From Sphingomonas sp. 67-36 (GTDB lineage: Bacteria; Pseudomonadota; Alphaproteobacteria; Sphingomonadales; Sphingomonadaceae), in the NCBI GenBank assembly GCA_001897375.1, contig MKSU01000003.1:95505-159504 (forward strand): a stretch of 64,000 nucleotides of DNA. Direction: 5' to 3'. The notes beneath the pieces were generated by a model. The model ran no database searches. It was not told where the DNA came from and saw nothing but the letters and a program-made list of their open reading frames with translations. Each line of letters begins with the position of its first letter. Position 1 is the stretch's first letter. The position numbers and the translations under genes were made by a program. Below, in pieces: positions 7,942 to 63,741 of this stretch.

Positions 7942-8778
7942 ATGAGACTTTGCCGCTTCGCGCACGACGGGCACTCCCGCCTCGGTATCGTTTCGGGGGA
8001 TGTCGTCATTCCTGTCGATGGCTTTGTCGAGATGATCGACCTGATCGCGGCGTGGCCGACGCTGCGACCATGGCTTGAGGATGTCGAGCGCCAGCGGTTG
8101 GGCGCATTCGCGCTTGCCAGCGCCGAATTGCTGGCCCCCATCGCCCGGCCGGGCAAGATCATGGCCATCGGCCTCAACTACGCTGACCACGTGGCGGAGT
8201 CGGGAATGAAGACGCCGGAGCACCAGACATGGTTCGCGAAGGCGACGAGCGCCGTGGTGGGGCCGTTCCAGCCGGTGCAGCTCCCGCGCGTATCCTCGAG
8301 CGTTGACTACGAGGCTGAGCTGGTTGTGGTGATCGGCGGCGGAGGGCGACATATTCCGGAGGCCGGCGCACTCGATGCGGTCTTCGGCTACGCCTGTGGC
8401 AACGACGTCAGCGTCCGCGACTGGCAGCTGCGCACGCCGCAATGGATTCTGGGGAAGTCGTTCGACACGCACGCGCCGTTCGGCCCGTGGATCACGACCG
8501 CCGACGAGGTGGATCCGTCGCACCTCGGCATCCGCGCCCTGGTCAACGGCGAGGTCCGCCAATCGTCGAACACGCGTCACCTCGTCTTCGACGTCGCGGC
8601 ACAGATCGCGCATCTGAGCCAGGCGATGACGCTGGAGCCGGGCGATCTCATCTACACGGGAACGCCGGGCGGGGTCGGCATGGGCATGAAGCCACCGCGC
8701 TTCCTCGCACCCGAAGACGTTGTCAGGATCGAGATCGATGGCTTGGGCGCGATCGAAAACAGGTTTGTGCCCGAATAG
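7942..8778 (+). CDS. Fumarylacetoacetate hydrolase (FAH) family protein
   Basis: 278 residues, the two-part FAH fold: a short N-terminal region (1-65) followed by the catalytic domain beginning GKIMAIGLNYADHVAESG. Metal-binding acidic residues are in DYEAELVVVIG (around 110-120) and the ACGNDVSVRDWQ segment near 150. The family covers 2-hydroxyhepta-2,4-diene-1,7-dioate isomerase, oxaloacetate decarboxylase, acylpyruvase and 2,4-diketopentanoate hydrolase activities. The start is 12 nt after the hydroxylase stop with GAGGAGATCGGAG upstream. Its role is probably downstream processing or tautomerisation of a ring-cleavage product, but the exact substrate is unknown. Confidence 0.85.
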   Translation: MRLCRFAHDGHSRLGIVSGDVVIPVDGFVEMIDLIAAWPTLRPWLEDVERQRLGAFALASAELLAPIARPGKIMAIGLNYADHVAESGMKTPEHQTWFAKATSAVVGPFQPVQLPRVSSSVDYEAELVVVIGGGGRHIPEAGALDAVFGYACGNDVSVRDWQLRTPQWILGKSFDTHAPFGPWITTADEVDPSHLGIRALVNGEVRQSSNTRHLVFDVAAQIAHLSQAMTLEPGDLIYTGTPGGVGMGMKPPRFLAPEDVVRIEIDGLGAIENRFVPE

Positions 8779-51868: not shown

Positions 51869-51915
51869 TGGCGCACCCAAGAGGATTCGAACCTCTGGCC
51901 TCTGCCTTCGGAGGG
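51869..51915 (-). other. tRNA-Arg(CCG) 3' half: integration scar (att site)
   Basis: On the minus strand the anticodon loop CTCCGAA, the 3' anticodon stem GGCAG, the variable loop, a perfect T-arm (AGAGG-TTCGAAT-CCTCT), the 3' acceptor strand and CCA are all present. The 5' half of the tRNA (acceptor GCACCCA, D-arm) is absent to the right. This is what an integrative element leaves when it inserts into a tRNA 3' end. The intact tRNA-Arg should lie at the other island boundary, to the right of the window. Confidence 0.88.
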
Positions 51916-52042
51916 AATATCGCTGGCTCCGCCAAAAAGCGCAAGGAGCCGCCGATGACCGCCTATCCTACTGTAAAGCCTAAACAATTTGCATTCAGTC
52001 TCCGCCGAACTTACTCTTCTGTCCGCCACAGTTTTCGCCCGC

Positions 52043-52093: not shown

Positions 52094-53455
52094 ATGTCTA
52101 AGCTCACAAAACGCGTCGTCGATGCCGCAGAAAGTCGCGCAAAAGATTACGTCATATGGGACGACGAACTGCCCGGCTTCGGCCTCCGCGTGTTCGCGTC
52201 CGGCAAGCGCAGCTACGTGATCCAGTATCGTCTCGGCAAGCGGTCGCGTCGCTTCACAATCGGATTGCACGGCGTCTGGACGCCTGAGCGCGCGCGCCAG
52301 GAGGCAAAGGTGCAGTTGGGGCGGATCGCGCAGGGCGAAGATCCGGCCGAAGAGAAGCAGCTCGACAGCAAGGCGATCACCGTCAAGGAGCTGTGTGACC
52401 TCTACGTTGCCGACCTAAAAGCCGGCCTCATCCTCGGCAAGGGAGGCCGCCCCAAGAAAGCCAGCACCATTCTCTCCGACACGGGGCGCATCGAGCGTCA
52501 CATCATCCCCTTGCTTGGTACGCGCAGGGTCAAGGATCTGGTGAAGGCGGATATCACGAAGGCCCTGAAGGACATCATGGCCGGCAAGACTCGTTGCAGC
52601 GTCAAGACGAAGAAGCTTCGCGGCCGTGCTATCGTGCGTGGTGGAGCGGGTACGGCGACGCGCACGATCGGGCTCTTCGGCGGAATACTGACCTACGCGG
52701 TCGAAGCTGGGATCATCGATCTGAACCCGGCGCATGGTGTCAGGCGGCCGAAGGACAACGTCCGTGCGCGGCGTCTGACCGAGGCAGAATATCGGTTGCT
52801 CGGCGAAATCCTGGGCAAGGCGGCCAAGACAGAGAAATACGAGCTATCAGTTGAAATCATACGCCAGCTCGCGCTCACCGGATGCCGGCGGACTGAGATG
52901 GTGACGCTCGCGTGGGCGGAGGCGGACACGAGCGCGAGTTGCTTGCGTCTGGTTGACAGTAAGGAGGGAAGCTCCATCCGCCCGATCGGACTCCCTGTCG
53001 TCGAATACCTCGAAGCAAGTCGGAAAGCTCGCACAGGCACGTACGTGTTTCCCGGACACGGAGACGACAACGCGTTCGGAAGCCTTCCGAACCATTGGGA
53101 GCAGATATTCAGAGATACTCCGCTGGCCGACATCACACCCCATGTCTTGCGGCACAGCTTTGCCAGCATCGCAAACGATCTCGGCTTCACAGAGGTGACG
53201 ATCGCTGCTCTGGTTGGCCACTCAAAGGGCTCAGTCACCAGCAACTACATACACACGCTCGATACAGCGCTTATCATGGCCGCCGACACGATCGCCGGTT
53301 ACATCCAGGGCTTGCTCGACGGCATCGAGTTCAAGCAAACGGCCTACGCCGTGGACCGCGACTCTCGCCGCGCTGCACTCGCTCGCTTCCTTCAACAAGC
53401 CTCGGCGCCGGATGCCGCTGAGGCGCAAAACGAGCAGCAACGCGCCGCTGCGTAG
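52094..53455 (+). CDS. Tyrosine recombinase/integrase (P4-type, DUF4102 N-terminus)
   Basis: 453 residues. N-terminal arm-binding domain (1-90, IWDDELPGFGLRVFASGKRSYVIQYRLGKRSRRFTIG), SAM-like core-binding domain (about 95-225) and catalytic domain with R265 (TGCRRTEM), H350/R353 (HVLRHSF), H376 (GHSK) and nucleophile Y385 (NYIH): the full set is intact. ATG preceded by GGAGGAAG. Positioned 180 bp inside the tRNA-Arg scar, as expected for the enzyme that inserted the island. Confidence 0.95.
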   Translation: MSKLTKRVVDAAESRAKDYVIWDDELPGFGLRVFASGKRSYVIQYRLGKRSRRFTIGLHGVWTPERARQEAKVQLGRIAQGEDPAEEKQLDSKAITVKELCDLYVADLKAGLILGKGGRPKKASTILSDTGRIERHIIPLLGTRRVKDLVKADITKALKDIMAGKTRCSVKTKKLRGRAIVRGGAGTATRTIGLFGGILTYAVEAGIIDLNPAHGVRRPKDNVRARRLTEAEYRLLGEILGKAAKTEKYELSVEIIRQLALTGCRRTEMVTLAWAEADTSASCLRLVDSKEGSSIRPIGLPVVEYLEASRKARTGTYVFPGHGDDNAFGSLPNHWEQIFRDTPLADITPHVLRHSFASIANDLGFTEVTIAALVGHSKGSVTSNYIHTLDTALIMAADTIAGYIQGLLDGIEFKQTAYAVDRDSRRAALARFLQQASAPDAAEAQNEQQRAAA

Positions 53456-53532: not shown

Positions 53533-54162
53533 ATGAAGACGGTAAGCGCCTCCGTTCCGGATCGGGTCATGAAACGCGTTCGCGCTAGCGGACGCGGCAG
53601 TGTCTTCACGCCCAGCGACTTTCTCTCTGTCGCCACTCGCTCCTCGGTCGATCAGGCCCTTTCGCGGTTGGTAAAGGGCGGACACCTCCGTCGGCTTGCG
53701 CGCGGGCTCTACGACTTTCCAAAGCTGCATCCGAAGCTCGGGCCACTGTCTCCTGCGCCGGACGATGTAGCACACGCGCTTGCTAGGGAGACCGGCTCCC
53801 AGGTGCAGATCGCCGGCGCGCGGGCAGCAAACGCGCTCGGCCTGTCGGCGCAAGTCCCGGCACAAAGCACTTATCTGACCGATGGTCCGTCGCGTCGTGT
53901 CGTGCTGGGAAAGCGCGTCGTAGATCTTCGCCACGCCTCGCCCAAGCATCTGATCGCACCGGGCAGCCCCGCCGGGACGGTCGTGCAGGCGCTTCGCCAT
54001 GTTGGCCCCGTTCGGGCGGCTGATGTCGCGCAGGTTGCGGCGCGCCAGCTGTCGGCCAACGACAAGAAGACGTTGGCCTCAACCGCCCTTCAAGCGCCTG
54101 CCTGGATGAGGCCAACGCTCGTTTCGATCGCCAACGCATCGATGGCCGATATCGATGGATGA
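53533..54162 (+). CDS. AbiEi-like antitoxin (DUF6088-type winged helix)
   Basis: 209 residues. N-terminal winged helix (about 18-62, GSVFTPSDFLSVATRSSVDQALSRLVKGGHLRRLARGLYDFP) followed by the AbiEi-type C-terminal domain (DDVAHALARETGSQVQIAGARAANALGLS). AbiEi proteins silence the type IV toxin AbiEii and autorepress. Its stop overlaps the toxin gene by 8 nt. The perfect inverted repeat at 53503-53530 is the probable autoregulatory site. Confidence 0.87.
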   Translation: MKTVSASVPDRVMKRVRASGRGSVFTPSDFLSVATRSSVDQALSRLVKGGHLRRLARGLYDFPKLHPKLGPLSPAPDDVAHALARETGSQVQIAGARAANALGLSAQVPAQSTYLTDGPSRRVVLGKRVVDLRHASPKHLIAPGSPAGTVVQALRHVGPVRAADVAQVAARQLSANDKKTLASTALQAPAWMRPTLVSIANASMADIDG

Positions 54163-55234
54163 TGTCGCCCGCCTTCCCAGCGCCGATCGCGCAGCTCTCT
54201 TCGGGGAGACCGGCGCCGGCCGAGGCGTCGCCGACACGATCATCGAAAAGGACTTCTGGGTCTGCTGGAGCCTGAAGCGCCTGTTCGGCATGCCGAAGGG
54301 CACCACGGCAAGCCTCGTCTTCAAGGGCGGCACATCGCTCTCCAAGGCGTTCAACGCCATCCGTCGGTTCTCCGAGGACATCGACCTATCGTTCGACCGG
54401 GCCGAACTCGGATACACCGGCGAGCGCGACCCCGAGAAGAAGGGGATCAGCAGGAAGCAGGCGGCCCGACTTATCGACGACCTGGTGGGCGACGTCGAGC
54501 GGCACATCACCGAGAAATTTCTCCCGGCGCTTCGTGCCGCGATCGTAGAACAACTTGGCGAGCCAACCAACGGCGAGTGGTCGCTGGAGGTAGACGCCAA
54601 CGACGCCCAAACCGTCAACTTCCATTATCCGACCGCGCTGCCTGCTGCCGAATACGACGGCATGGCTTACATCACCCCGCGGGTAAAATTCGAGCTCGGC
54701 GCGCGGGGCGATCCCTGGCCGACCGAGGAGAAAGTCATCCGCCCCTATGCGGCCGACGACTATCCGGACTTCTTCACCGATCCCGACGCCAGCGTGACCG
54801 TGCTGTCAGCGCGGCGGACCTTCTGGGAAAAGGCGACCGCGCTCCATGCGGAGGCGCACCGCCCCGCCGAGTCACCGACGCCGCCCTATTTCTCGCGGCA
54901 CTATTACGATCTCGCGATGATCCTCGACACGGACGAGGGCCGAGCCGCCGTTGCCGATCTCGACCTGCTAGCGCAGGTGGCGCAACACAAAGCCACCTTC
55001 TTCCGTTCAGGCTGGGCCAGCTACGAAACGGCTCGGCCAGGCACGCTCCGGCTGATGCCGGATGACAGTCGGGTCAAAGACCTGCGAGCCGACTATCGGG
55101 CGATGGCGCCGATGATGTTTGATCAGTCACCGCCGTCATTCGACGATTTGCTCAAGCAGATGATTGCTCTGCAGGAGGCCATCAACAATGGAAGAGGCGC
55201 GAGACAGAAGCGAGCCGTGACTGCCTTCGACTGA
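54155..55234 (+). CDS. AbiEii/AbiGii-family nucleotidyltransferase toxin
   Basis: 359 residues. Nucleotidyltransferase motifs are visible: EKDFWVCWSLKRLF at 31-44, K57-G-G-T-S-L62 and S73-E-D75-I-D77-L. AbiEii toxins (for example MenT-type) add nucleotides to tRNA acceptor ends and block translation during phage infection. It overlaps the antitoxin gene by 8 nt, as in known abiE operons. A 38-nt gap separates it from the Abi-C-like gene downstream. Confidence 0.9.
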   Translation: MDDVARLPSADRAALFGETGAGRGVADTIIEKDFWVCWSLKRLFGMPKGTTASLVFKGGTSLSKAFNAIRRFSEDIDLSFDRAELGYTGERDPEKKGISRKQAARLIDDLVGDVERHITEKFLPALRAAIVEQLGEPTNGEWSLEVDANDAQTVNFHYPTALPAAEYDGMAYITPRVKFELGARGDPWPTEEKVIRPYAADDYPDFFTDPDASVTVLSARRTFWEKATALHAEAHRPAESPTPPYFSRHYYDLAMILDTDEGRAAVADLDLLAQVAQHKATFFRSGWASYETARPGTLRLMPDDSRVKDLRADYRAMAPMMFDQSPPSFDDLLKQMIALQEAINNGRGARQKRAVTAFD

Positions 55235-55272: not shown

Positions 55273-56121
55273 ATGCTTGAGTTCGACGGCGCATGGCGTT
55301 TCGACGGCCCCGGCCCACTCGAGCCCGATGCGGTACGAGGATTTCGTGAGTTGATTGACCGCATCTGCGGGCAGGCAACACGCAAGTGGGTTCTTGAACA
55401 CTTCAAATCTCATTTCGCCGCTGCCGCGGGAGTCCCGCACTACACCAGCAGCGATGAGAGCTGGGCGTCGTCTGACCTCGACACGAAGATGAATGAGGCC
55501 GGTGAAAACGCGCCCCTCTTTATCGAGGCGTTCTACAATGCCTGCGAAGAGTTGCGCATCCAGCGGCCAGACGTCGCGCTGCCTGACGTAGACCGCTTAA
55601 ATCGAATTCTGAGCAATGCTGGCGCTGGGTATCAGCTCGACCCGCCCAAACTTGTCGCAACACGTGTCCATATTCCAATCAGCGTTCCCGATGCACCGCC
55701 ATCGCTCGATGAGCAAGCCCGACAGGTGATCAGCCAGGCTCTAGATGTATCTGAACGCGCTCTGGCCCAGGGTAACGGAAGACAAGCGGTCCAAGAGGTG
55801 CTGTGGCTGCTGGAAACGATCGCCACCGCCTTCAGAGGCCTCGATGCAGACGATGGCAGTATCCAAGGTCGCTACTTCAACAAGATCATCTGCGAACTGC
55901 GACAGCGTGGCCGCGGACATCAGGAGCAGATCCTGCAGTGGATGATGACTCTCCACGGCTATCTGTCGTCGCCGACAGGCGGTGGCGTGCGCCATGGCGT
56001 GGATCTCAAAGACGGGCTTGCCTTGGGCATCGACGAGGCGCGTCTCTATTGTAATCTCGTTCGCAGTTATCTTACCTTCCTCATCGCAGAACACGAGCGG
56101 ATAGCCAGGCGGTCCGCGTGA
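55273..56121 (+). CDS. Abortive-infection (Abi-C-like) protein
   Basis: 282 residues, soluble. The last 100 residues contain GVRHG and a following amphipathic helix pair (DEARLYCNLVRSYLTFLIAEHERIA) that resemble the C-terminal domain of abortive-infection proteins of the Abi-C type; the N-terminal half (1-140) is not recognised. The start is 38 nt after the toxin stop, and its stop overlaps the next gene (GTGA). Probable partner of the GIY-YIG fusion protein that follows. Similarity is judged by eye and should be treated as tentative. Confidence 0.65.
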   Translation: MLEFDGAWRFDGPGPLEPDAVRGFRELIDRICGQATRKWVLEHFKSHFAAAAGVPHYTSSDESWASSDLDTKMNEAGENAPLFIEAFYNACEELRIQRPDVALPDVDRLNRILSNAGAGYQLDPPKLVATRVHIPISVPDAPPSLDEQARQVISQALDVSERALAQGNGRQAVQEVLWLLETIATAFRGLDADDGSIQGRYFNKIICELRQRGRGHQEQILQWMMTLHGYLSSPTGGGVRHGVDLKDGLALGIDEARLYCNLVRSYLTFLIAEHERIARRSA

Positions 56122-56987
56122 CAACCTACATTACAAAGACATGGGGATTTGGAACGCCGTCCGGCCCCCTCCAGTTCAGTCACCGTGGCTGGCGGGAGCG
56201 TGCCCGCGACATGCTTCGCCCCGGCGACCTGGTAGTCATCGTCGGCACGATGGGAGACGAAACACTGCCCGAGGAGCGCGGCATGATCCTCGGCCTGATG
56301 GAGCCGACGACATCGATCGTCAGCTCACTCGACTATGACCTAGCGCGCGGTCCCCGCGATTTTGACGAAACCGGAAGGTATCGCTGGCCGTACGGGCTCG
56401 AATTGCAGCGAGCGTGGCGCTTCAGTGAGCCCCGCACAGCGTTAGCCGTCATCTCCTCGAGACGGTTCAGCATGGACTCGGCGCAAGGCATCGTCCCACT
56501 TCTACCAGAAGAAGCCGAAGCAACGATGCTACTGCCGCGAGAGCCAGTCGCTCTGCTCAGGCCAGCACGCACCGAAGCTCGGATATCCGGCATCGAAGCC
56601 GCGCGGCGGCGCGGAGCGCCGCCGCCGACCACAACGCGCTCTGGCGTTATGCACATGCGACGCGCGCCAGCCTTCACCTACGCAATGAGCATCGAGGGCG
56701 CAGCGACGCCCTGCTGCAAGATCGGTTGGTCTTTCGACTGGAGAAGTCGAGAAAGGCACTTCAACCAAGTGGCCATGCCAAACGTTGGTGGTTTGCGCTA
56801 TCGGACAATCCTGCATGAACTCTGGGATACTGCGGGCGAAGCCTTCCGAATGGAGCAGGCACTCCTAAGCAAGTTTGACGCTCTGCGGCATCCGCAAAAC
56901 CGCGAAATCCTGGAACGCACGGATGCGGTCACCATTCAAGGAGCTTGGATCGACTACCTAGTGGATGCTCGCCGCCGCCACCGGTAA
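56118..56987 (+). CDS. EVE/PUA-like domain fused to GIY-YIG (T5orf172-like) nuclease
   Basis: 289 residues, GTG start overlapping the preceding stop. N-terminal half (about 1-140) has DMLRPGDLVVIVGTMGDETLPEERGMILGLMEPTT and later RWPYGLELQRAWRF, the pattern of EVE/PUA-like base-reading domains that sense modified nucleotides. C-terminal half (about 180-289) matches T5orf172/GIY-YIG: FTYAMSIEG (Y188), K201-I-G203, R near 210 and catalytic E246 (RMEQALLSKF). A modification reader joined to a nuclease is the logic of type IV restriction. Both domain calls are by pattern, the nuclease more secure than the reader. Confidence 0.7.
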   Translation: MTTYITKTWGFGTPSGPLQFSHRGWRERARDMLRPGDLVVIVGTMGDETLPEERGMILGLMEPTTSIVSSLDYDLARGPRDFDETGRYRWPYGLELQRAWRFSEPRTALAVISSRRFSMDSAQGIVPLLPEEAEATMLLPREPVALLRPARTEARISGIEAARRRGAPPPTTTRSGVMHMRRAPAFTYAMSIEGAATPCCKIGWSFDWRSRERHFNQVAMPNVGGLRYRTILHELWDTAGEAFRMEQALLSKFDALRHPQNREILERTDAVTIQGAWIDYLVDARRRHR

Positions 56988-57121
56988 CCCTGCAGCTCAC
57001 TCCTATCGTCCGCGCACATATGACGCATGGCCTGTCCTCTTGGCCGATGATCGCCTCCGAAAACAGTCTCTTGTTTCTCTCTCCTAAATGGCTCATAAGG
57101 GGTGAGTTTTCGGAGGATCCT

Positions 57122-57703
57122 TTGTTAATAGGCTATGCGCGGCCCTCATTGCGGGATCAATCGCCAGAAACCCAACTCGCGGCTCTTGAAGAGGCGGGTT
57201 GCGAAAGGATTGTCATCGAGACGCTAACAGGCGCCCAACGAGACCGGCCTCAGCTGAGATGGGCGCTTGGCGGAATTTCCCAAGGCGATACTCTGGTAGT
57301 TTGGAAGCTCGATCGTCTGGCGCGGTCGCTTCGGCAACTCACGGAGACCATTGCTGAACTGCAGCAGAGGCATGTCAGCCTGCGGATATTAGATCCGGAT
57401 TTGTCTTTGGAAATGACGTCGGGAGACATGGGGCTTCGCTTTTTTGCAGCCATTGCCGAATTTGATCGGGAGTTAGCGCTCGAAAAGTCCAGCAAAGGTC
57501 TAGCTGCGGCTAAGGCGCTTGGTCGCCGAGGAGGGCGCAAGCCAGCAATGGGGCCCACCGATATCAGCCGTGCAAAGCGCCTGCTGATGGACACCAATGT
57601 GACGGTGGAAGAGGTTGCCAAGCAGATGGGAGTTCAGCCTTCCACTTTATATCGGCACATCCCTGGTGGGCGCAGCTCGCTTGCGCACGTCTCAGACGGG
57701 TGA
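57122..57703 (+). CDS. Small serine recombinase (resolvase/invertase family)
   Basis: 193 residues from TTG 57122: GGAGG lies 5 nt upstream and the protein then starts MLIGYARPS exactly as resolvases do. Catalytic Ser in YARPS (residue 9) and the arginines in KLDRLARS near 62-69 are present; C-terminal Hin-type helix-turn-helix (VEEVAKQMGVQPSTLYRHIPGG). Size and layout fit Tn3-type resolvases or Gin/Hin invertases. Placed 50 bp before hsdR, it may act at sites in or near the restriction operon or be a transposon remnant. Confidence 0.85.
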   Translation: MLIGYARPSLRDQSPETQLAALEEAGCERIVIETLTGAQRDRPQLRWALGGISQGDTLVVWKLDRLARSLRQLTETIAELQQRHVSLRILDPDLSLEMTSGDMGLRFFAAIAEFDRELALEKSSKGLAAAKALGRRGGRKPAMGPTDISRAKRLLMDTNVTVEEVAKQMGVQPSTLYRHIPGGRSSLAHVSDG

Positions 57704-57753
57704 CGGCGCTCTCAGGTTGAAGGCGGAAAATACGGGGGCATGGGAAGTTGGGC

Positions 57754-60075
57754 TTGAGCGAGAGAGACATTTGCACGAAGCTGATCACGCCGGCGGTGGT
57801 GGCTGCAGGGTGGGACGTTAACGCCCAACTGCGCGAAGAAGTTACACTTACCGATGGTCGAGTCATTGTACGGGGCAAACTCTCAACTCGTGGTCGACAG
57901 CTACGGGCTGACTACGTCCTGTATCATCGCCCAAACGTGCCGCTAGCTGTCATCGAGGCGAAGGATGGAAGCCACTCTCCTTCAGCCGGTCTCCAGCAAG
58001 CGCTGGGCTATGGCGAGATGCTGGACGTGCCGTTCGTTTTTTCTTCGAACGGCAGCCGTTTCGTCTTCCACGACAAGACATCTCAGGGCGCCCTAGAGCG
58101 TGAAATTGAGATGTCGGAATTCCCGAGCCCTGCCGAGCTTTGGCGCAAGTTTCAGGTTTGGAAGGGACTCGACGAACCTGCGTCGCAAATCGTCGAGCAG
58201 GGATACTATGCCGCTCCAGATGGAAAGGCTCCGCGCTACTACCAGGCGACGGCGGTTAACCGCGCTGTCGCTGCCGTAGCAAACGGTCAAGATCGCATTC
58301 TGCTGGTAATGGCAACCGGCACTGGCAAAACTTATACTGCTTTTCAGATTATCTGGCGGCTGTGGAAAGCCCGAGCAAAAAAGCGCATCCTTTTCCTGGC
58401 AGATCGCAACATTCTTGTCGATCAAACCAAGAGTAACGATTTCGCGCCGTTTGGCGGAGCGATGACAAAAATCGCGAACCGCCAAGTTGATAAGTCATAC
58501 GAGATTTACCTTGCGCTCTACCAAGCGGTGTCCGGCACGACAGACGAGCAGGATATATACAAGCAGTTTTCGCCTGATTTCTTTGACCTGATTATTGTCG
58601 ACGAATGTCACCGGGGAAGCGCGGCGGCAGACTCTGCTTGGCGCGATATTCTGGCATACTACAGCAGCGCTACACAAATCGGAATGACGGCGACACCCAA
58701 GGAGACGGCTGAGGTTTCTAGCACCGACTACTTTGGCGAGCCGCTATACACATATTCGCTAAGGCAGGGCATCGAGGACGGTTTTCTCGCTCCGTACAAA
58801 GTTATTCGATACGATTTAGATCTCGATCTAATCGGATATCGGCCGCATGTCGGTGACGTTGACCGCTACGGTCACGCCGTTGAAGATCGCATTTACGGGC
58901 AAAGCGATGTTGACACGAAGGTGGTTTTTGACCCGCGCACCAAACTCGTCGCCGCGAAGGTGACGGAGTTTCTCAAGGGAAATGATCGCTTCGGAAAGAC
59001 AATCGTGTTTTGCGAAGACACCGAGCATGCAGATCGCATGCGTAAGGAACTAGCCAACGCAAACGCCGACCTTGTTGCCGATAATTACCGATACGTGGTT
59101 CGCATGACCGGCGACGACGCGGCGGGTGCCGCGGAATTAGATAATTTCATTGATCCCTTCTCATCCCACCCCGTCATTGCAACCACATCGAAGCTTCTTA
59201 CGACGGGAGTGGACGTAAAAACCTGTAAGCTGATCGTTCTCGATCAGCGCATCCAGTCGATGACGGAGTTCAAGCAGATAATTGGTCGTGGCACGCGCAT
59301 TGATGAGGCGAACGGCAAGCGCTTCTTCACGATCATGGATTTCAAGCGGGCCACCGAGCTTTTCGCTGATCCGGCCTTCGATGGAGATCCCGTCCAGATC
59401 TTCGAACCTCCACTCGGAGCAGACCTCGAAGAGCTTGAGAGCACCATTGAAAGTGATCAGGTTGCAGCATCGGCGGATGAGCAACTCACAGATAGCTCCA
59501 GACCAAGAAAATACTACATCGACGGCGTCGAGGTGGAGGTCGCAGCGCGCCGCGTTCAATATCTAGACGCCGAGGGAAAGCTAATCACTGAGGCGCTGAG
59601 CGCGTACGTGAAGCGCAAACTTCAGGACAAGTACCTCACCTTGGGAAACTTTCTCGCCCGATGGACAGAGGCTGATCGGAAGCAGGCGATCCTTGCCGAG
59701 GTCGAAGAGCTTGGCATTCCACTAGATGCTCTGCGCGAAGAGGCGCCGAATGGAGCCGGCTACGACACGTTCGACTTGGTATGCCACATTGCGTTCGACC
59801 GCCCGCTCTTGACGCGTCGTGAGCGGGCTGCTCGCGTTCGCGACCGCCAGCCGTTCGGAGCCTATAGCGAGCGGGCGAGAACGGTCTTGTATGCGTTGCT
59901 CGACAAATACGCCGACGACGACGGTGCAACGTTGGAGAGCGGCAAGATCCTCCACCTAAAGCCATTCGACCAAATCGGTACGCCGGTTGAGATCATAAAG
60001 CGCGTCTTCGGTGGAAAGGATCAATACCAAGCCGCTGTCCGTGAACTCGAAACCCAAATTTACGCGGAGGCCTGA
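57754..60075 (+). CDS. hsdR: Type I restriction enzyme, R subunit
   Basis: 773 residues from TTG 57754 (GGGAAG 6 nt upstream; TTG 57748 is the alternative). N-terminal PD-(D/E)xK nuclease with D53 and E68-A-K70 (RADYVLY...VIEAKDGS), then the SF2 translocase: Walker A MATGTGKT near 186-193, D283-E-C-H286, GRGTRI (motif VI) near 510, and the EcoEI-type R C-terminal domain. Cleaves DNA after ATP-driven translocation when the site is unmethylated. Shorter than EcoKI HsdR (about 1,170 aa) but normal for the EcoEI-like group. One nt separates it from hsdM. Confidence 0.94.
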   Translation: MSERDICTKLITPAVVAAGWDVNAQLREEVTLTDGRVIVRGKLSTRGRQLRADYVLYHRPNVPLAVIEAKDGSHSPSAGLQQALGYGEMLDVPFVFSSNGSRFVFHDKTSQGALEREIEMSEFPSPAELWRKFQVWKGLDEPASQIVEQGYYAAPDGKAPRYYQATAVNRAVAAVANGQDRILLVMATGTGKTYTAFQIIWRLWKARAKKRILFLADRNILVDQTKSNDFAPFGGAMTKIANRQVDKSYEIYLALYQAVSGTTDEQDIYKQFSPDFFDLIIVDECHRGSAAADSAWRDILAYYSSATQIGMTATPKETAEVSSTDYFGEPLYTYSLRQGIEDGFLAPYKVIRYDLDLDLIGYRPHVGDVDRYGHAVEDRIYGQSDVDTKVVFDPRTKLVAAKVTEFLKGNDRFGKTIVFCEDTEHADRMRKELANANADLVADNYRYVVRMTGDDAAGAAELDNFIDPFSSHPVIATTSKLLTTGVDVKTCKLIVLDQRIQSMTEFKQIIGRGTRIDEANGKRFFTIMDFKRATELFADPAFDGDPVQIFEPPLGADLEELESTIESDQVAASADEQLTDSSRPRKYYIDGVEVEVAARRVQYLDAEGKLITEALSAYVKRKLQDKYLTLGNFLARWTEADRKQAILAEVEELGIPLDALREEAPNGAGYDTFDLVCHIAFDRPLLTRRERAARVRDRQPFGAYSERARTVLYALLDKYADDDGATLESGKILHLKPFDQIGTPVEIIKRVFGGKDQYQAAVRELETQIYAEA

Positions 60076-60076
60076 G

Positions 60077-61552
60077 ATGGCGGATGTAACGAACGCTCTT
60101 AAGGCTATCCAGGACACTATGCGTAAGGACGCAGGGGTTGATGGCGATGCACAGCGCATCGGCCAACTCGTCTGGATGTTTTTTCTCAAGATTTTTGACG
60201 ACCGCGAAGAGGAGCTAGCGCTCCTTGATGACGAGTACCAATCGCCTATGCCGCTAACGTTGCGGTGGTCAGCATGGGCGGCGGACCCTGAGGGGATTAC
60301 TGGCGACGAGTTGCTAGCCTTCGTTAACAACAAGCTGTTCCCTGGCTTGAAGGGGTTGAATCTCGACGTGGCGGAGCGGTCGCGCGCTCAAGTTATCTAC
60401 AGCGTATTTCAAGACGCGATAAACTATATGAAGTCCGGCACATTGCTCCGGCAGGTTATCAATAAGATCAATGACATAGACTTTAACAACCTTGGCGATC
60501 GCCACACGTTTGGTGATGTTTACGAGCAAATACTCCGTGACTTACAAAGCGCTGGAAATGCAGGCGAATTCTATACGCCGCGGGCGCTTACGCAATTTAT
60601 GGTAGAGATGGTGGATCCGAAGCTCGGCGATATCGTCTTTGATCCTGCGTGCGGAACCGGCGGCTTTTTGGCGTGCGCGGTCGACCATAAGACAGATCTC
60701 TACGTCACGGGCGAGAACGACTACGAGGTACTGCAATCGTCTATCCGCGGTGTGGAAAAGAAGGCACTTCCGCACCTTCTCTGCACTACCAACATGATGC
60801 TCCACGGCATCGAGAGCCCCACGAACATAGTTCGAGGCAACACGCTGAGCAGTCCAATCAAGGATCATCCTCTTCGAAAAAAGGTAGATGTGGTCCTTAC
60901 CAATCCCCCTTTTGGAGGGATCGAAGAGGATGGGATCGAGCGCAATGTTCCGCAGCTATATCAGACTCGCGAAACCGCAGATCTGTTTCTCGTCCTCATA
61001 ATCGAACTTCTCAGAGATGGTGGTCGCGCTGCAGTCGTGTTGCCTGATGGCACCCTCTTCGGCGAGGGTACCAAGACCCGTATCAAGGAGAAGCTGCTCA
61101 CGGAGTGCAACCTCCACACGATTGTTCGACTGCCCAATGGGGTTTTCAATCCCTACACAGGCATCAAGACCAACCTTCTGTTCTTCGAAAAGAATGGACC
61201 AACCAAAGAGGTTTGGTTTTACGAGCATCCATATCCGCCAGGCTACAAAAACTATTCCAAGTCGCGGCCGATCCGATTTGAGGAGTTCGAGGCAGAAAAG
61301 GCTTGGTGGGGCGACGCATCGCGCCAGGGTCGCAAGCAGACGCCTCTTAGCTGGAAGGTTGATATCCAAGAAATCAAAGACCGTAATTACAACTTGGATT
61401 TAGCGAACCCGTTCAAGCCCGATGGCGACAACAGGAGCGTAGACGAACTCATCCGGGCTTATGACCAAAGCGAGCGCGAGATGCGAGCGGCCAATGCTGC
61501 ACTTATCAGCGCCCTCCAGACTGCCCTCGGACACGCGGGACAACTAAGCTGA
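60077..61552 (+). CDS. hsdM: Type I restriction-modification, DNA adenine methyltransferase subunit
   Basis: 491 residues. HsdM N-terminal helical domain (1-150, LVWMFFLKIFDDREEELALLDDEYQSP), SAM motif I D189-PACGTGGFL and the catalytic N276-PPF279 of N6-adenine methyltransferases. GCGGAGG upstream. Start one nt after the hsdR stop; its TGA overlaps the hsdS ATG by one base (TGATG), so all three subunits are made from one coupled message. Confidence 0.95.
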   Translation: MADVTNALKAIQDTMRKDAGVDGDAQRIGQLVWMFFLKIFDDREEELALLDDEYQSPMPLTLRWSAWAADPEGITGDELLAFVNNKLFPGLKGLNLDVAERSRAQVIYSVFQDAINYMKSGTLLRQVINKINDIDFNNLGDRHTFGDVYEQILRDLQSAGNAGEFYTPRALTQFMVEMVDPKLGDIVFDPACGTGGFLACAVDHKTDLYVTGENDYEVLQSSIRGVEKKALPHLLCTTNMMLHGIESPTNIVRGNTLSSPIKDHPLRKKVDVVLTNPPFGGIEEDGIERNVPQLYQTRETADLFLVLIIELLRDGGRAAVVLPDGTLFGEGTKTRIKEKLLTECNLHTIVRLPNGVFNPYTGIKTNLLFFEKNGPTKEVWFYEHPYPPGYKNYSKSRPIRFEEFEAEKAWWGDASRQGRKQTPLSWKVDIQEIKDRNYNLDLANPFKPDGDNRSVDELIRAYDQSEREMRAANAALISALQTALGHAGQLS

Positions 61553-63741
61553 TGTTGGGCGTTTTGTATGACCGCCTAGCGGACCTTAGCGAGCTTCCCG
61601 ATGCCCATCTGCACCTGCGGCGCCTCGTCCTCGAACTCGCCGTCCAGGGTGCTTTTGTACCCGGTGCTGACACCTCTCCAGCGCCACTGGTGCGCGTGGG
61701 CGATGTAAGCGAGATCCTGACCGGTACGAGCGTGAACGCTGCCGAGAAGGAGCTTCGCTACGCAGGGCTGACAGATGGGTTCCCCTACATCGCGACGAAG
61801 GACGTCGCGCTAAACTCCGGCGTGATTGACTACGAAAACGGCGTGAAAATTCCGTGCGATGAGATCGGCTTTAAGGTTGCCCCGGCCGGCTCGGTCTTGG
61901 TCTGCGCGGAAGGCGGCAGCGCGGGCAAAAAGATCGGGCTGACAGATCGACCTGTATGCTTCGGCAACAAGCTCTACGCTATAGTGCCCAATGATGGCCT
62001 GATCCCACTTTACCTTAATCAAGTTATCCGCAGCAACTCCTTCTACGAGCAATTTAAAAGCCAAATAACTGGCATAATCGGGGGCGTCTCGATTAAGAAG
62101 TTCAAAGATATTCTCATCCCCGTTCCATCTCTTGTCGAACAGCAGTGCACCATTGATGCGCTCTCTAATCTCGAGGGACACTTAGCGAATTTAGAGAGAT
62201 GTCGCCTGTCTGAGCAATTAGCGCGAATGAGTGCCGTGGACGGCGCCTTAGCTGCGCTTCGCGACTCGGCGGATTCTGCGTCTTTGAAGTTGGTATGGGA
62301 AAGAGTGTCCAGCCGTTTCGGAGGGTGGTTCACTGATCTCGCGTCACTAAAGCGTCTCCGACAAGCAATCATTGACGTCGCGGTCCGTGGCCTGCTCCTC
62401 GATGAGGACGCTTCGCTTGTGAAAGAAACAACCCTTTCGGCTCTCACTGCCTTCGGCCCGAAGAATGGCTTCTCGCCGAGGCCTGTATCAGGGCCGACGC
62501 CTACCAAAACGATGTCGCTTTCCGCAATTACCAAAGGGATTTTTGATCCGACCGCTTTCAAGTACGTCCAGGAGACGCCCCCTCAAGACTCCGACTTATG
62601 GGTCGAACCAGGCGACATATTACTGCAGCGCGCGAACACGATCGAATATGTGGGCGTATCTGCAGTCTATACTGGAGAAATAGGCGACTTCATTTATCCC
62701 GACCTCATAATGCGCATTACGCCGAAGCCGGGCGTCGATAGCAGATTCCTCCATTTGGCGCTCTCTTGCTCGAAGGCCAGGGCCTTCATGCGAGAGCGCG
62801 CGAGCGGCACGTCCGGAACGATGCCGAAGGTCAATCAAGCAACCGTCAAGGCGGTCCCGGTGCGCTTGCCCTCAATAGAGCAACAGCGCCGGGTCGTCGC
62901 GGCGACCGAGGAGCTGTTGAGTTTCTGCTCAACGCTAGAGCGCGGCATCGAAGCAAGGCAGCGCGACGGGCTTGCACTATTAGAGGCGTTGGCGCGCAGG
63001 CCTGCTGATGGCGGCCCAAGCGCTGGCGGCAAAGATGCTGGCGCGATTGACGAGCAGGAAGGCCAGGGAAACTCGACTGAAGCAGCCGTTGGGTCTGGCT
63101 TCGCTCAAAAGACTCCCTCCTCGGCAAAGCCGGTAGATCTCGGACATAAGCACGACGATGATCGCGTTTTCGAAGCTGTATTGGTCACTGCGGTGGTCGA
63201 TGCCTTTTTTGAAAGGTCACCCGAGCCGCTGGGAAACTTTCGGCTTCAGAAGGCTGTTTATTTCGCTCGTCGTCGGATAGGCGACACACAAGTCAATAGC
63301 GATTACCTCAAAAAGGTCGCGGGCCCATACAATCCAAAGATGCGCTATTCCGGTGGGATTGCAGTCGCAAAATCGCAAGGCTGGATAAGAGAAGCACGCG
63401 GCCGATTTGGGTTCGGCCACATCAGAGGCGCTAATGCTGAGTTCGCTCAATCCAGTCTAGAACTGAGATCTGTCGCATCTTGGGTTCGAGATACGTTCGT
63501 TCTGCGCAAGAACGATGAATGGGAGCGGCTTGCAACGATCGATTACGCGACGTGCGCTTTGGGCAAACGCAATGACGCTGTCACGCCGAAGTCCGTCCTC
63601 GACTACATCCGTAACTTGGACGTCTGGCAGCACAAAGTCGCAAAGTTGGGCCTGAACGAGTTTAGCATCGAGTCGGCGATGCTGGAATTGTCTCTGCTGT
63701 TCCCCACCGATCTGAGGGCCTCTGCGCGTGTCCTCGGGTAG
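61552..63741 (+). CDS. hsdS: Type I specificity subunit with C-terminal extra domain
   Basis: 729 residues, against 400-450 for usual HsdS. First target-recognition domain about 45-205 (RVGDVSEILTGTSVN...KKFKDILIPVPSLVEQQ), central conserved helix about 205-285, second TRD about 290-450, helix about 455-500, then a linker rich in Gly/Ala/Asp (500-535) and a folded domain 536-729 (DRVFEAVLVTAVVDAFFERSPEPLGNFRLQKAVYFARRRIGD...KVAGPYNPKMRYSGG). The GNFRLQKAVYFARR phrase resembles Panacea/SocA-like (DUF4065) proteins, but this is tentative. DNA specificity is set by the two TRDs. Confidence 0.9.
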   Translation: MLGVLYDRLADLSELPDAHLHLRRLVLELAVQGAFVPGADTSPAPLVRVGDVSEILTGTSVNAAEKELRYAGLTDGFPYIATKDVALNSGVIDYENGVKIPCDEIGFKVAPAGSVLVCAEGGSAGKKIGLTDRPVCFGNKLYAIVPNDGLIPLYLNQVIRSNSFYEQFKSQITGIIGGVSIKKFKDILIPVPSLVEQQCTIDALSNLEGHLANLERCRLSEQLARMSAVDGALAALRDSADSASLKLVWERVSSRFGGWFTDLASLKRLRQAIIDVAVRGLLLDEDASLVKETTLSALTAFGPKNGFSPRPVSGPTPTKTMSLSAITKGIFDPTAFKYVQETPPQDSDLWVEPGDILLQRANTIEYVGVSAVYTGEIGDFIYPDLIMRITPKPGVDSRFLHLALSCSKARAFMRERASGTSGTMPKVNQATVKAVPVRLPSIEQQRRVVAATEELLSFCSTLERGIEARQRDGLALLEALARRPADGGPSAGGKDAGAIDEQEGQGNSTEAAVGSGFAQKTPSSAKPVDLGHKHDDDRVFEAVLVTAVVDAFFERSPEPLGNFRLQKAVYFARRRIGDTQVNSDYLKKVAGPYNPKMRYSGGIAVAKSQGWIREARGRFGFGHIRGANAEFAQSSLELRSVASWVRDTFVLRKNDEWERLATIDYATCALGKRNDAVTPKSVLDYIRNLDVWQHKVAKLGLNEFSIESAMLELSLLFPTDLRASARVLG

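Follow-up and report, generated by a model that had tools for sequence, protein, structure and literature searches.

The window analysed here, a 64,000-nucleotide stretch of Sphingomonas sp. 67-36 DNA, encodes a protein of 289 amino acids (56118-56987, plus strand) in which an EVE-like reader is joined to a T5orf172-type GIY-YIG nuclease, as derived from the ORF list, a 33-row alignment, AlphaFold2 modelling and Foldseek searches. The open reading frame lies exactly where the original prediction had placed it, opens with a GTG codon, and has a start position that agrees in the alignment with the starts of its homologues. With moderate confidence, the protein is a candidate modification-dependent (type IV) restriction enzyme; this assignment, already put forward in the original prediction, remains the best reading and is supported by an EVE fold in one half and by a T5orf172 GIY-YIG fold and profile in the other. 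The reader-plus-nuclease layout of a type IV restriction enzyme is thus present as judged by fold and profile only. Mechanistically, the EVE half would flip a modified base of incoming (phage) DNA into a pocket, as the EVE domain of VcaM4I does, while the GIY-YIG half of the same or a paired molecule would cut the DNA nearby. Host DNA would be spared because it is without that modification.

Domain architecture of the EVE/GIY-YIG protein

The full-length AlphaFold2 model (pLDDT 85.5, pTM 0.52) resolves two domains with a helix and a low-confidence linker between them. This linker region (56565-56669, plus strand), delimited by the pLDDT of the full model, comprises a helix at residues 150-166 and a low-confidence part extending up to residue 184, with pLDDT below 50 at residues 159-164 and 166-178.

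Residues 1-147 (56118-56558, plus strand) are predicted to adopt an EVE fold within the PUA superfamily, as delineated by the domain model, by ranks 1-8 of the Foldseek PDB search and by hhalign against 21 canonical EVE proteins. The motif RPGDLVVIVGT...GMILGLMEPTT, named in the original prediction, is present and aligns in hhalign with the canonical EVE core, GD...FYHS...VVGIVEV. Comparison of a reader profile built from 46 reader sequences (45 used) with an EVE profile of 21 canonical proteins, kept by pattern from 23 loci, yields an hhalign P of 1.2e-4 and a score of 31.6, the best of 100 column shuffles reaching 20.9. A reader profile with 34 rows gives P 0.0016 against the same family, and the cross-controls score 10.7 for reader against T5orf172 (a set of 16 sequences, one row mis-framed) and 11.0 for nuclease against EVE. 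The AlphaFold2 model of the domain, covering residues 1-151 and based on the 34-row alignment, reaches a pLDDT of 92.4 and a pTM of 0.88. Its first eight PDB matches in Foldseek are 1wmm, 2p5d, 2hd9, 6yex (VcaM4I), 2ar1, 1zce, 2gbs and 2eve, with E-values from 5.7e-4 to 7.2e-3, of which only the rank-1 match (5.7e-4) falls below 0.001, and with moderate TM-scores of 0.42-0.53. Five of these structures (2p5d, 2ar1, 1zce, 2gbs and 2eve) are also recovered by sequence when eight canonical EVE proteins serve as the profile, and 1wmm and 2hd9 (PH1033) are presumably EVE proteins as well. The remaining match, 6yex, is an EVE domain according to its published description (PMC7897488). Beyond these eight EVE structures, the next fold neighbours of the reader in the PDB are YTH domains and THYN1. 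The original prediction had named beforehand the lack of any EVE or PUA fold at the N-terminus as the outcome that would count against it; the model and Foldseek find an EVE fold, predicted for residues 1-147, and the fold part of its refutation test is therefore passed.

At the level of single-sequence family matches, Pfam EVE (PF01878) recognises 0 of the 33 aligned proteins at E<=0.5, the window protein included; the sole PF01878 match is to a relative outside this set (L041, E 0.052, below the cut-off). Among columns considered as possible base-pocket residues, three are mostly or entirely aromatic across the 33 proteins, namely position 9 (W 29, Y 3, H 1), position 90 (W 24, F 7, Y 1, H 1) and position 100 (W 33), as counted in the alignment.

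Residues 185-289 (56670-56984, plus strand) constitute a predicted GIY-YIG nuclease domain of the T5orf172 type with conserved putative catalytic residues, delineated by Pfam T5orf172, hhalign and column counts. T5orf172 (PF10544) matches 31 of the 33 aligned proteins at E<=0.5, with a best value of 9.1e-5, and MUG113 matches 18 of them; the window protein itself scores 12.4 bits against PF10544 (E 0.24, below the cut-off of 20), and the distant relative L049 exceeds the curated T5orf172 cut-off. Compared with 15 T5orf172 domains, the nuclease profile gives an hhalign P of 2.3e-6 and a score of 38.2, with 100 shuffles at or below 14.6. Structurally, the full model weakly matches the GIY-YIG structures of UPF0213, Slx1 and UvrC in the PDB (Foldseek E 0.7-3), and in the Foldseek viral library 26 models are matched at E<=0.001, many of them named T5orf172 or Bro; the first model so named stands at E 1.2e-4, and many such names occur among the 50 matches listed. 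Fold and profile therefore agree on the C-terminal half as originally described. In GIY-YIG enzymes the catalytic residues are a tyrosine, an arginine and a glutamate, with Y188, R211 and E246 as their counterparts here. To our knowledge, GIY-YIG enzymes of known activity cut DNA. Residues Y188, K201, G203, R211, N216 and E246 are invariant in 33/33 aligned proteins, so that all four of the invariant positions named in advance (Y188, K201, G203 and E246) are found as described, while the adjoining I202, likewise named, is isoleucine in 27 and valine in 6. As a whole, the window protein lies above no Pfam cut-off and finds no match in PADLOC or NCBIfam (E<=1) or in PHROGs (E<=0.01).

Distribution and conservation of the family

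Among 199 related genomes, ten have a match; minus one, dropped as a homologue since it is a carboxylase (G162), nine carry both halves, the host among them. Matches spanning the nuclease half alone were set aside. Further homologues come from five plasmid records, from six viral-contig loci, three of them with one same protein, and from 37 loci of a genome collection, including one truncated gene (L072, cut short at 8001-8516), one with an HNH-like tail (L090) and one fragment (L092). We take 35 of these 37 loci to be alphaproteobacterial, the others being L069 (Thiohalocapsa), presumably a gammaproteobacterium, and L090, labelled Proteobacteria without finer assignment. Presence is patchy: with the reader profile at E<=1e-5, 6 of the 398 phylum genomes have a match, every one of them within the host's class, and so do 11 of 346 genomes of the order, the host being counted in both. 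Searches of 50,697 phage records return no match to the target at E<=0.01, and PDB sequences searched with phmmer and with profiles give only weak, unrelated matches. Individual loci depart from the common form: in L048 (9941-10894) the reader and nuclease parts fall into different frames or ORFs, and in L032 (10001-10858) the middle is divergent relative to L031.

Of 65 distinct reader-bearing proteins, the window's excluded, 58 carry a GIY-YIG half by pattern and 2 more by eye, 3 end in an HNH-like tail, assigned by motif with one sub-cut-off Pfam match among the three, and 2 are truncated. In the tree, which labels the truncated L048 and L072 as GIY, HNH-fused readers appear at two places, the joining of L046/L047 with L036/L039 being flagged as a possible long-branch effect. 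Both halves are conserved jointly across homologues at 21-79% identity, which, like the dN/dS values below, speaks against a chance reading frame. Within the window's group of 18 proteins, identity is 60.9% for the reader vs 56.4% for the nuclease; within the second group of 15 proteins the values are 46.5% vs 45.3%, and between the two groups 32.4% vs 26.8%. By these sequence comparisons, average conservation of the reader equals or exceeds that of the nuclease. In many enzymes it is the specificity domain that evolves fastest. Fast evolution of defence EVE domains is described by Bell 2020 (PMC7641849); for the present family, the group identities of the 33-protein alignment show no fast-evolving reader, which counts against the type IV reading. 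Whole-gene dN/dS ranges from 0.06 to 0.22 in four homologue pairs, the window being in none, and one pair reaches 0.49 in its nuclease half; synonymous sites are near or at saturation in pairs that include the window.

Genomic context and the roles it suggests

The target sits in a defence island whose tRNA, AbiE and type I restriction genes, all expected from the original prediction, are located as follows. A tRNA-Arg (ccg; 51869-51942, minus strand; ARAGORN) precedes the phage-type integrase of the island (52094-53455, plus strand; Pfam Phage_integrase), the AbiEi antitoxin with DUF6088 (53533-54162, plus strand; PADLOC, Pfam) and the AbiEii toxin (54155-55234, plus strand; PADLOC, Pfam). 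These are followed by a gene of 282 amino acids without a family name, termed U282 (55273-56121, plus strand; ORF list), which has no Pfam family above cut-off, and then by the target. Downstream lie a resolvase-family recombinase (56945-57703, plus strand; Pfam Resolvase at residues 62-194 of the ORF), whose TTG start overlaps the target so that its true start is probably downstream, and the type I restriction genes hsdR (57748-60075; PADLOC), hsdM (60011-61552; PADLOC) and hsdS (61552-63741; PADLOC, Pfam), all on the plus strand. The HsdS protein (729 aa) bears a C-terminal extension of ~190 residues past its specificity domains that matches no Pfam family. A direct repeat of at least 12 bases of the tRNA-Arg, as expected of an att site, is absent elsewhere in the window, except for a 12-13-base match in tRNA-Gln, and since the contig stops at the window end, the island cannot be followed to its right border.

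Across the family, a seed gene lies within 8 kb of the homologue in 23 of 52 non-redundant loci vs 1 of 37 control stretches (Fisher 4.2e-6), the 20 seeds being defence or restriction genes plus U282, drawn from the same loci as counted, one of them (nSTAND3) below its Pfam cut-off. Removal of the U282 seed leaves 22/52 loci, and a hand count using seeds from other loci only, again without U282, leaves 18/52 (Fisher 1.5e-4). Ten redundant loci were removed before counting, and short-flank loci, among them L001-L029, L050 and L121-L134, were left out. The controls derive from 40 stretches of ten homologue-bearing contigs, of which 37 were used, some of them overlapping, and three near-repeats left out; controls and test loci share seeds and E-value and differ in their ORF lists.

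Four loci hold Zorya I genes. In L078, L082 and L086, from Methylobacterium and Bradyrhizobium, the homologue overlaps zorD (L078:4997-8867) or follows it by 2 bases (L082:4999-8837 and L086:4999-8852), with zorA to zorD identified by PADLOC in L078 and L082 and zorD in L086. In L037, L038 and L041, the homologue has a type IIG-like methylase on one side and a DEAD helicase on the other. After the DEAD helicase comes another GIY-YIG protein, 422-451 aa long (L041:6410-14160, L037, L038; T5orf172 match in the genome of L041), and the EVE/GIY-YIG protein is N-extended in L037 and L038. Such arrangements suggest an alternative, namely that the protein is an accessory nuclease of larger systems (Zorya, methylase-helicase modules) instead of a stand-alone type IV enzyme, its EVE-like half binding to a DNA structure, to a partner or to sites without modification, and its GIY-YIG half doing the cutting for the neighbouring systems. 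Adjacency to or overlap with zorD in three of four Zorya I loci, the position between methylase and helicase, and the strong conservation of the reader across contexts all speak for it; however, 29 of the 52 loci lack any seed match inside the 8-kb range, partners vary by locus, three loci examined sit in phage structural-gene regions, and in the fourth Zorya I locus (L049) a distance of 4.5 kb, occupied by type I restriction genes, separates zorD from the homologue. We regard this role as rather unlikely.

Other neighbourhoods involve cytosine modification and further nucleases. A C5-cytosine methylase lies within 4 kb of the homologue in L039, L056, L073, L089 and L093, accompanied by an SNF2 helicase in L056, L073 and L089 and by Vsr in L056, L073 and L093. 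In L073 (2880-8852) and L056 the array reads cytosine methylase, a familyless gene of ~430 aa, SNF2 helicase, Vsr, a 208-aa protein and the EVE/GIY-YIG protein, while L089 and L093 (8001-10929) hold parts of this set or a different order. A Mrr-type gene occurs within 1 kb of the homologue in L032, L085 and L087. AbiEii lies directly upstream of the homologue in L030 and L077, and upstream of U282 in the window. AbiE was rejected as an obligate partner, being present on plasmids without the target: by megablast, 19 plasmid records match the region, 18 along the AbiEi-AbiEii stretch and one along a shorter piece of it, and among the matches listed none of the 19 reaches the target. Their accessions show no overlap with the five homologue-bearing plasmid records. 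A tentative synthesis, to which we assign a low probability, is that one conserved EVE/GIY-YIG nuclease serves as an add-on second line behind many defence systems that are otherwise unrelated (Zorya I, cytosine-methylase/Vsr/SNF2, type IIG-like methylase/helicase, Mrr-type, AbiE and U282), its reader recognising one modification shared by the phages that evade ordinary restriction, with alphaproteobacteria pairing the nuclease with whichever first line they carried.

The stop codon of U282 overlaps the start of the target by 4 bases, and the same gene pair occurs in five other loci (L057-L061), in whose available flanks AbiE finds no match. This coupling, together with a C-terminal half of U282 that is nearly invariant in five aligned proteins, is consistent with a two-gene system in which U282 acts as effector or regulator while its partner, the EVE/GIY-YIG protein, senses DNA. 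Among the 52 loci, however, U282 is matched only in the window, L057, L058, L060 and L061 (L059 having been dropped as redundant), and its Pfam matches, AbiJ_NTD4 at E 0.26 among them, are all below cut-off and give it no function; we consider this arrangement improbable.

In L053 (8001-8852), L067 (8001-8864) and L081 (2890-3750), the homologue lies amid phage genes for tail, lysis or terminase functions, and runs on the strand opposite to those checked. Three further records, from Sandaracinobacter, Qipengyuania and Roseomonas (L074-L076), carry identical proteins, which points to recent transfer. Copies among phage genes, identical copies in three genera, and the T5orf172 domains that phage ICP1 carries in its putative homing enzymes (PMC8263062) would suit a nuclease of mobile or homing type whose other half binds DNA, spreading for its own sake, but enrichment beside defence genes and a gene start that in several loci touches or overlaps the gene upstream make this very unlikely. 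Least probable of all is an RNA-directed role, in which the EVE/YTH-like half would read modified RNA and the nuclease would act on RNA or tRNA, as YTH domains among the fold neighbours and RNA roles in the EVE literature (PMC7641849) might suggest, given that CMoRE, a GIY-YIG enzyme of known activity, cuts DNA (PMC12923530).

Returning to the type IV reading, the domain order and size shared with VcaM4I, the joining of the same reader to an HNH-like nuclease in three relatives, the seed enrichment, the patchy distribution and the identical proteins in three genera favour it, while the moderate TM-scores to EVE structures and the sub-cut-off T5orf172 score of the window protein weigh against it. 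The methylases of the host and of the family constrain what the reader may recognise. The host genome has no match to C5-cytosine methylase (PF00145), which allows C5-modified cytosine as the target there. It does encode a CcrM-like methylase, which scores 607.6 bits (E 5.7e-183) against the NCBIfam CcrM model with its cut-off of 830, in addition to two more N6/N4-methylase matches besides the HsdM of the window; N6-methyladenine at CcrM sites is therefore probably not the target, as the nuclease would attack its own host. Across the family, the C5-cytosine methylases near five relatives make plain 5-methylcytosine less likely as a common target, and, together with the type IIG-like methylase beside three, would render a simple anti-methyl role self-harming at those loci unless sequence context spares the host. 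A bulkier, phage-specific mark (hydroxymethyl-cytosine, glucosyl-cytosine or another) would fit the whole family better than plain 5-methylcytosine, with the caveat that sequence context could indeed spare the host and that readers may differ between subfamilies.

Comparison with known systems

The original prediction had regarded EVE with GIY-YIG as not a standard pairing, a claim that does not hold, the pairing having already been published as a prediction (Bell 2020, PMC7641849). Alongside EVE-PD(D/E)XK and EVE-HNH enzymes, that work describes fusions of EVE to PLDc or GIY-YIG nucleases as 'numerous'; its EVE/GIY-YIG class combines both of the target's domain types within a single chain and is predicted to act in type IV restriction, section 9 being without experimental data on these fusions (PMC7641849). 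A term search of the main text finds no AbiE, Vsr or Zorya (PMC7641849). A limited literature search, covering parts of the sources, found no experimentally tested EVE plus GIY-YIG member. The freshest aspect of the present family is therefore its pairings with defence genes, the Zorya link not being claimed as unreported; recurrence behind Zorya I and near cytosine methylase/Vsr provides concrete gene combinations. For the predicted EVE plus GIY-YIG class as a whole, the alignment supplies a defined, conserved family with intact putative catalytic residues.

Among characterised proteins with a GIY-YIG nuclease, CMoRE, an experimentally tested type IV enzyme for 5hmC/5ghmC, likewise combines the nuclease and a modification sensor in one chain, but places the nuclease first, whereas that of the target is C-terminal (PMC12923530). 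Its GIYxY-YIG motif also differs from the target's TYA...KIG: Y-x-Y is found in 11 of the 33 aligned proteins, the window's not among them, and in 33/33 a lysine (K201) replaces the tyrosine of the second motif. Odn (ICP1 Gp88) shares a T5orf172 GIY-YIG domain and an N-terminal targeting domain with the target, yet its N-terminus is RepA-like, targets an origin sequence and contains no EVE domain (PMC8263062). SNIPE, a defence protein, likewise has a C-terminal GIY-YIG nuclease, but is membrane-anchored and carries DUF4041 where the target has EVE (PMC13190303).

A close architectural counterpart is VcaM4I, an EVE-HNH modification-dependent endonuclease composed of an EVE domain (residues 1-147), linker helices (148-178) and an HNH domain (179-309) (PMC7897488, PDB 6yex). 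Profiles of the target's family do not recover VcaM4I by sequence; at the structural level it ranks fourth among the matches of the target reader, and the two proteins share an N-terminal EVE domain of ~147 residues, a helical linker, a C-terminal nuclease and a similar size, differing in that the nuclease is HNH in VcaM4I and GIY-YIG in the target. If the protein is active, it would offer a possible tool for the detection of modified bases and would mean that EVE readers work with GIY-YIG nucleases as they do with HNH.
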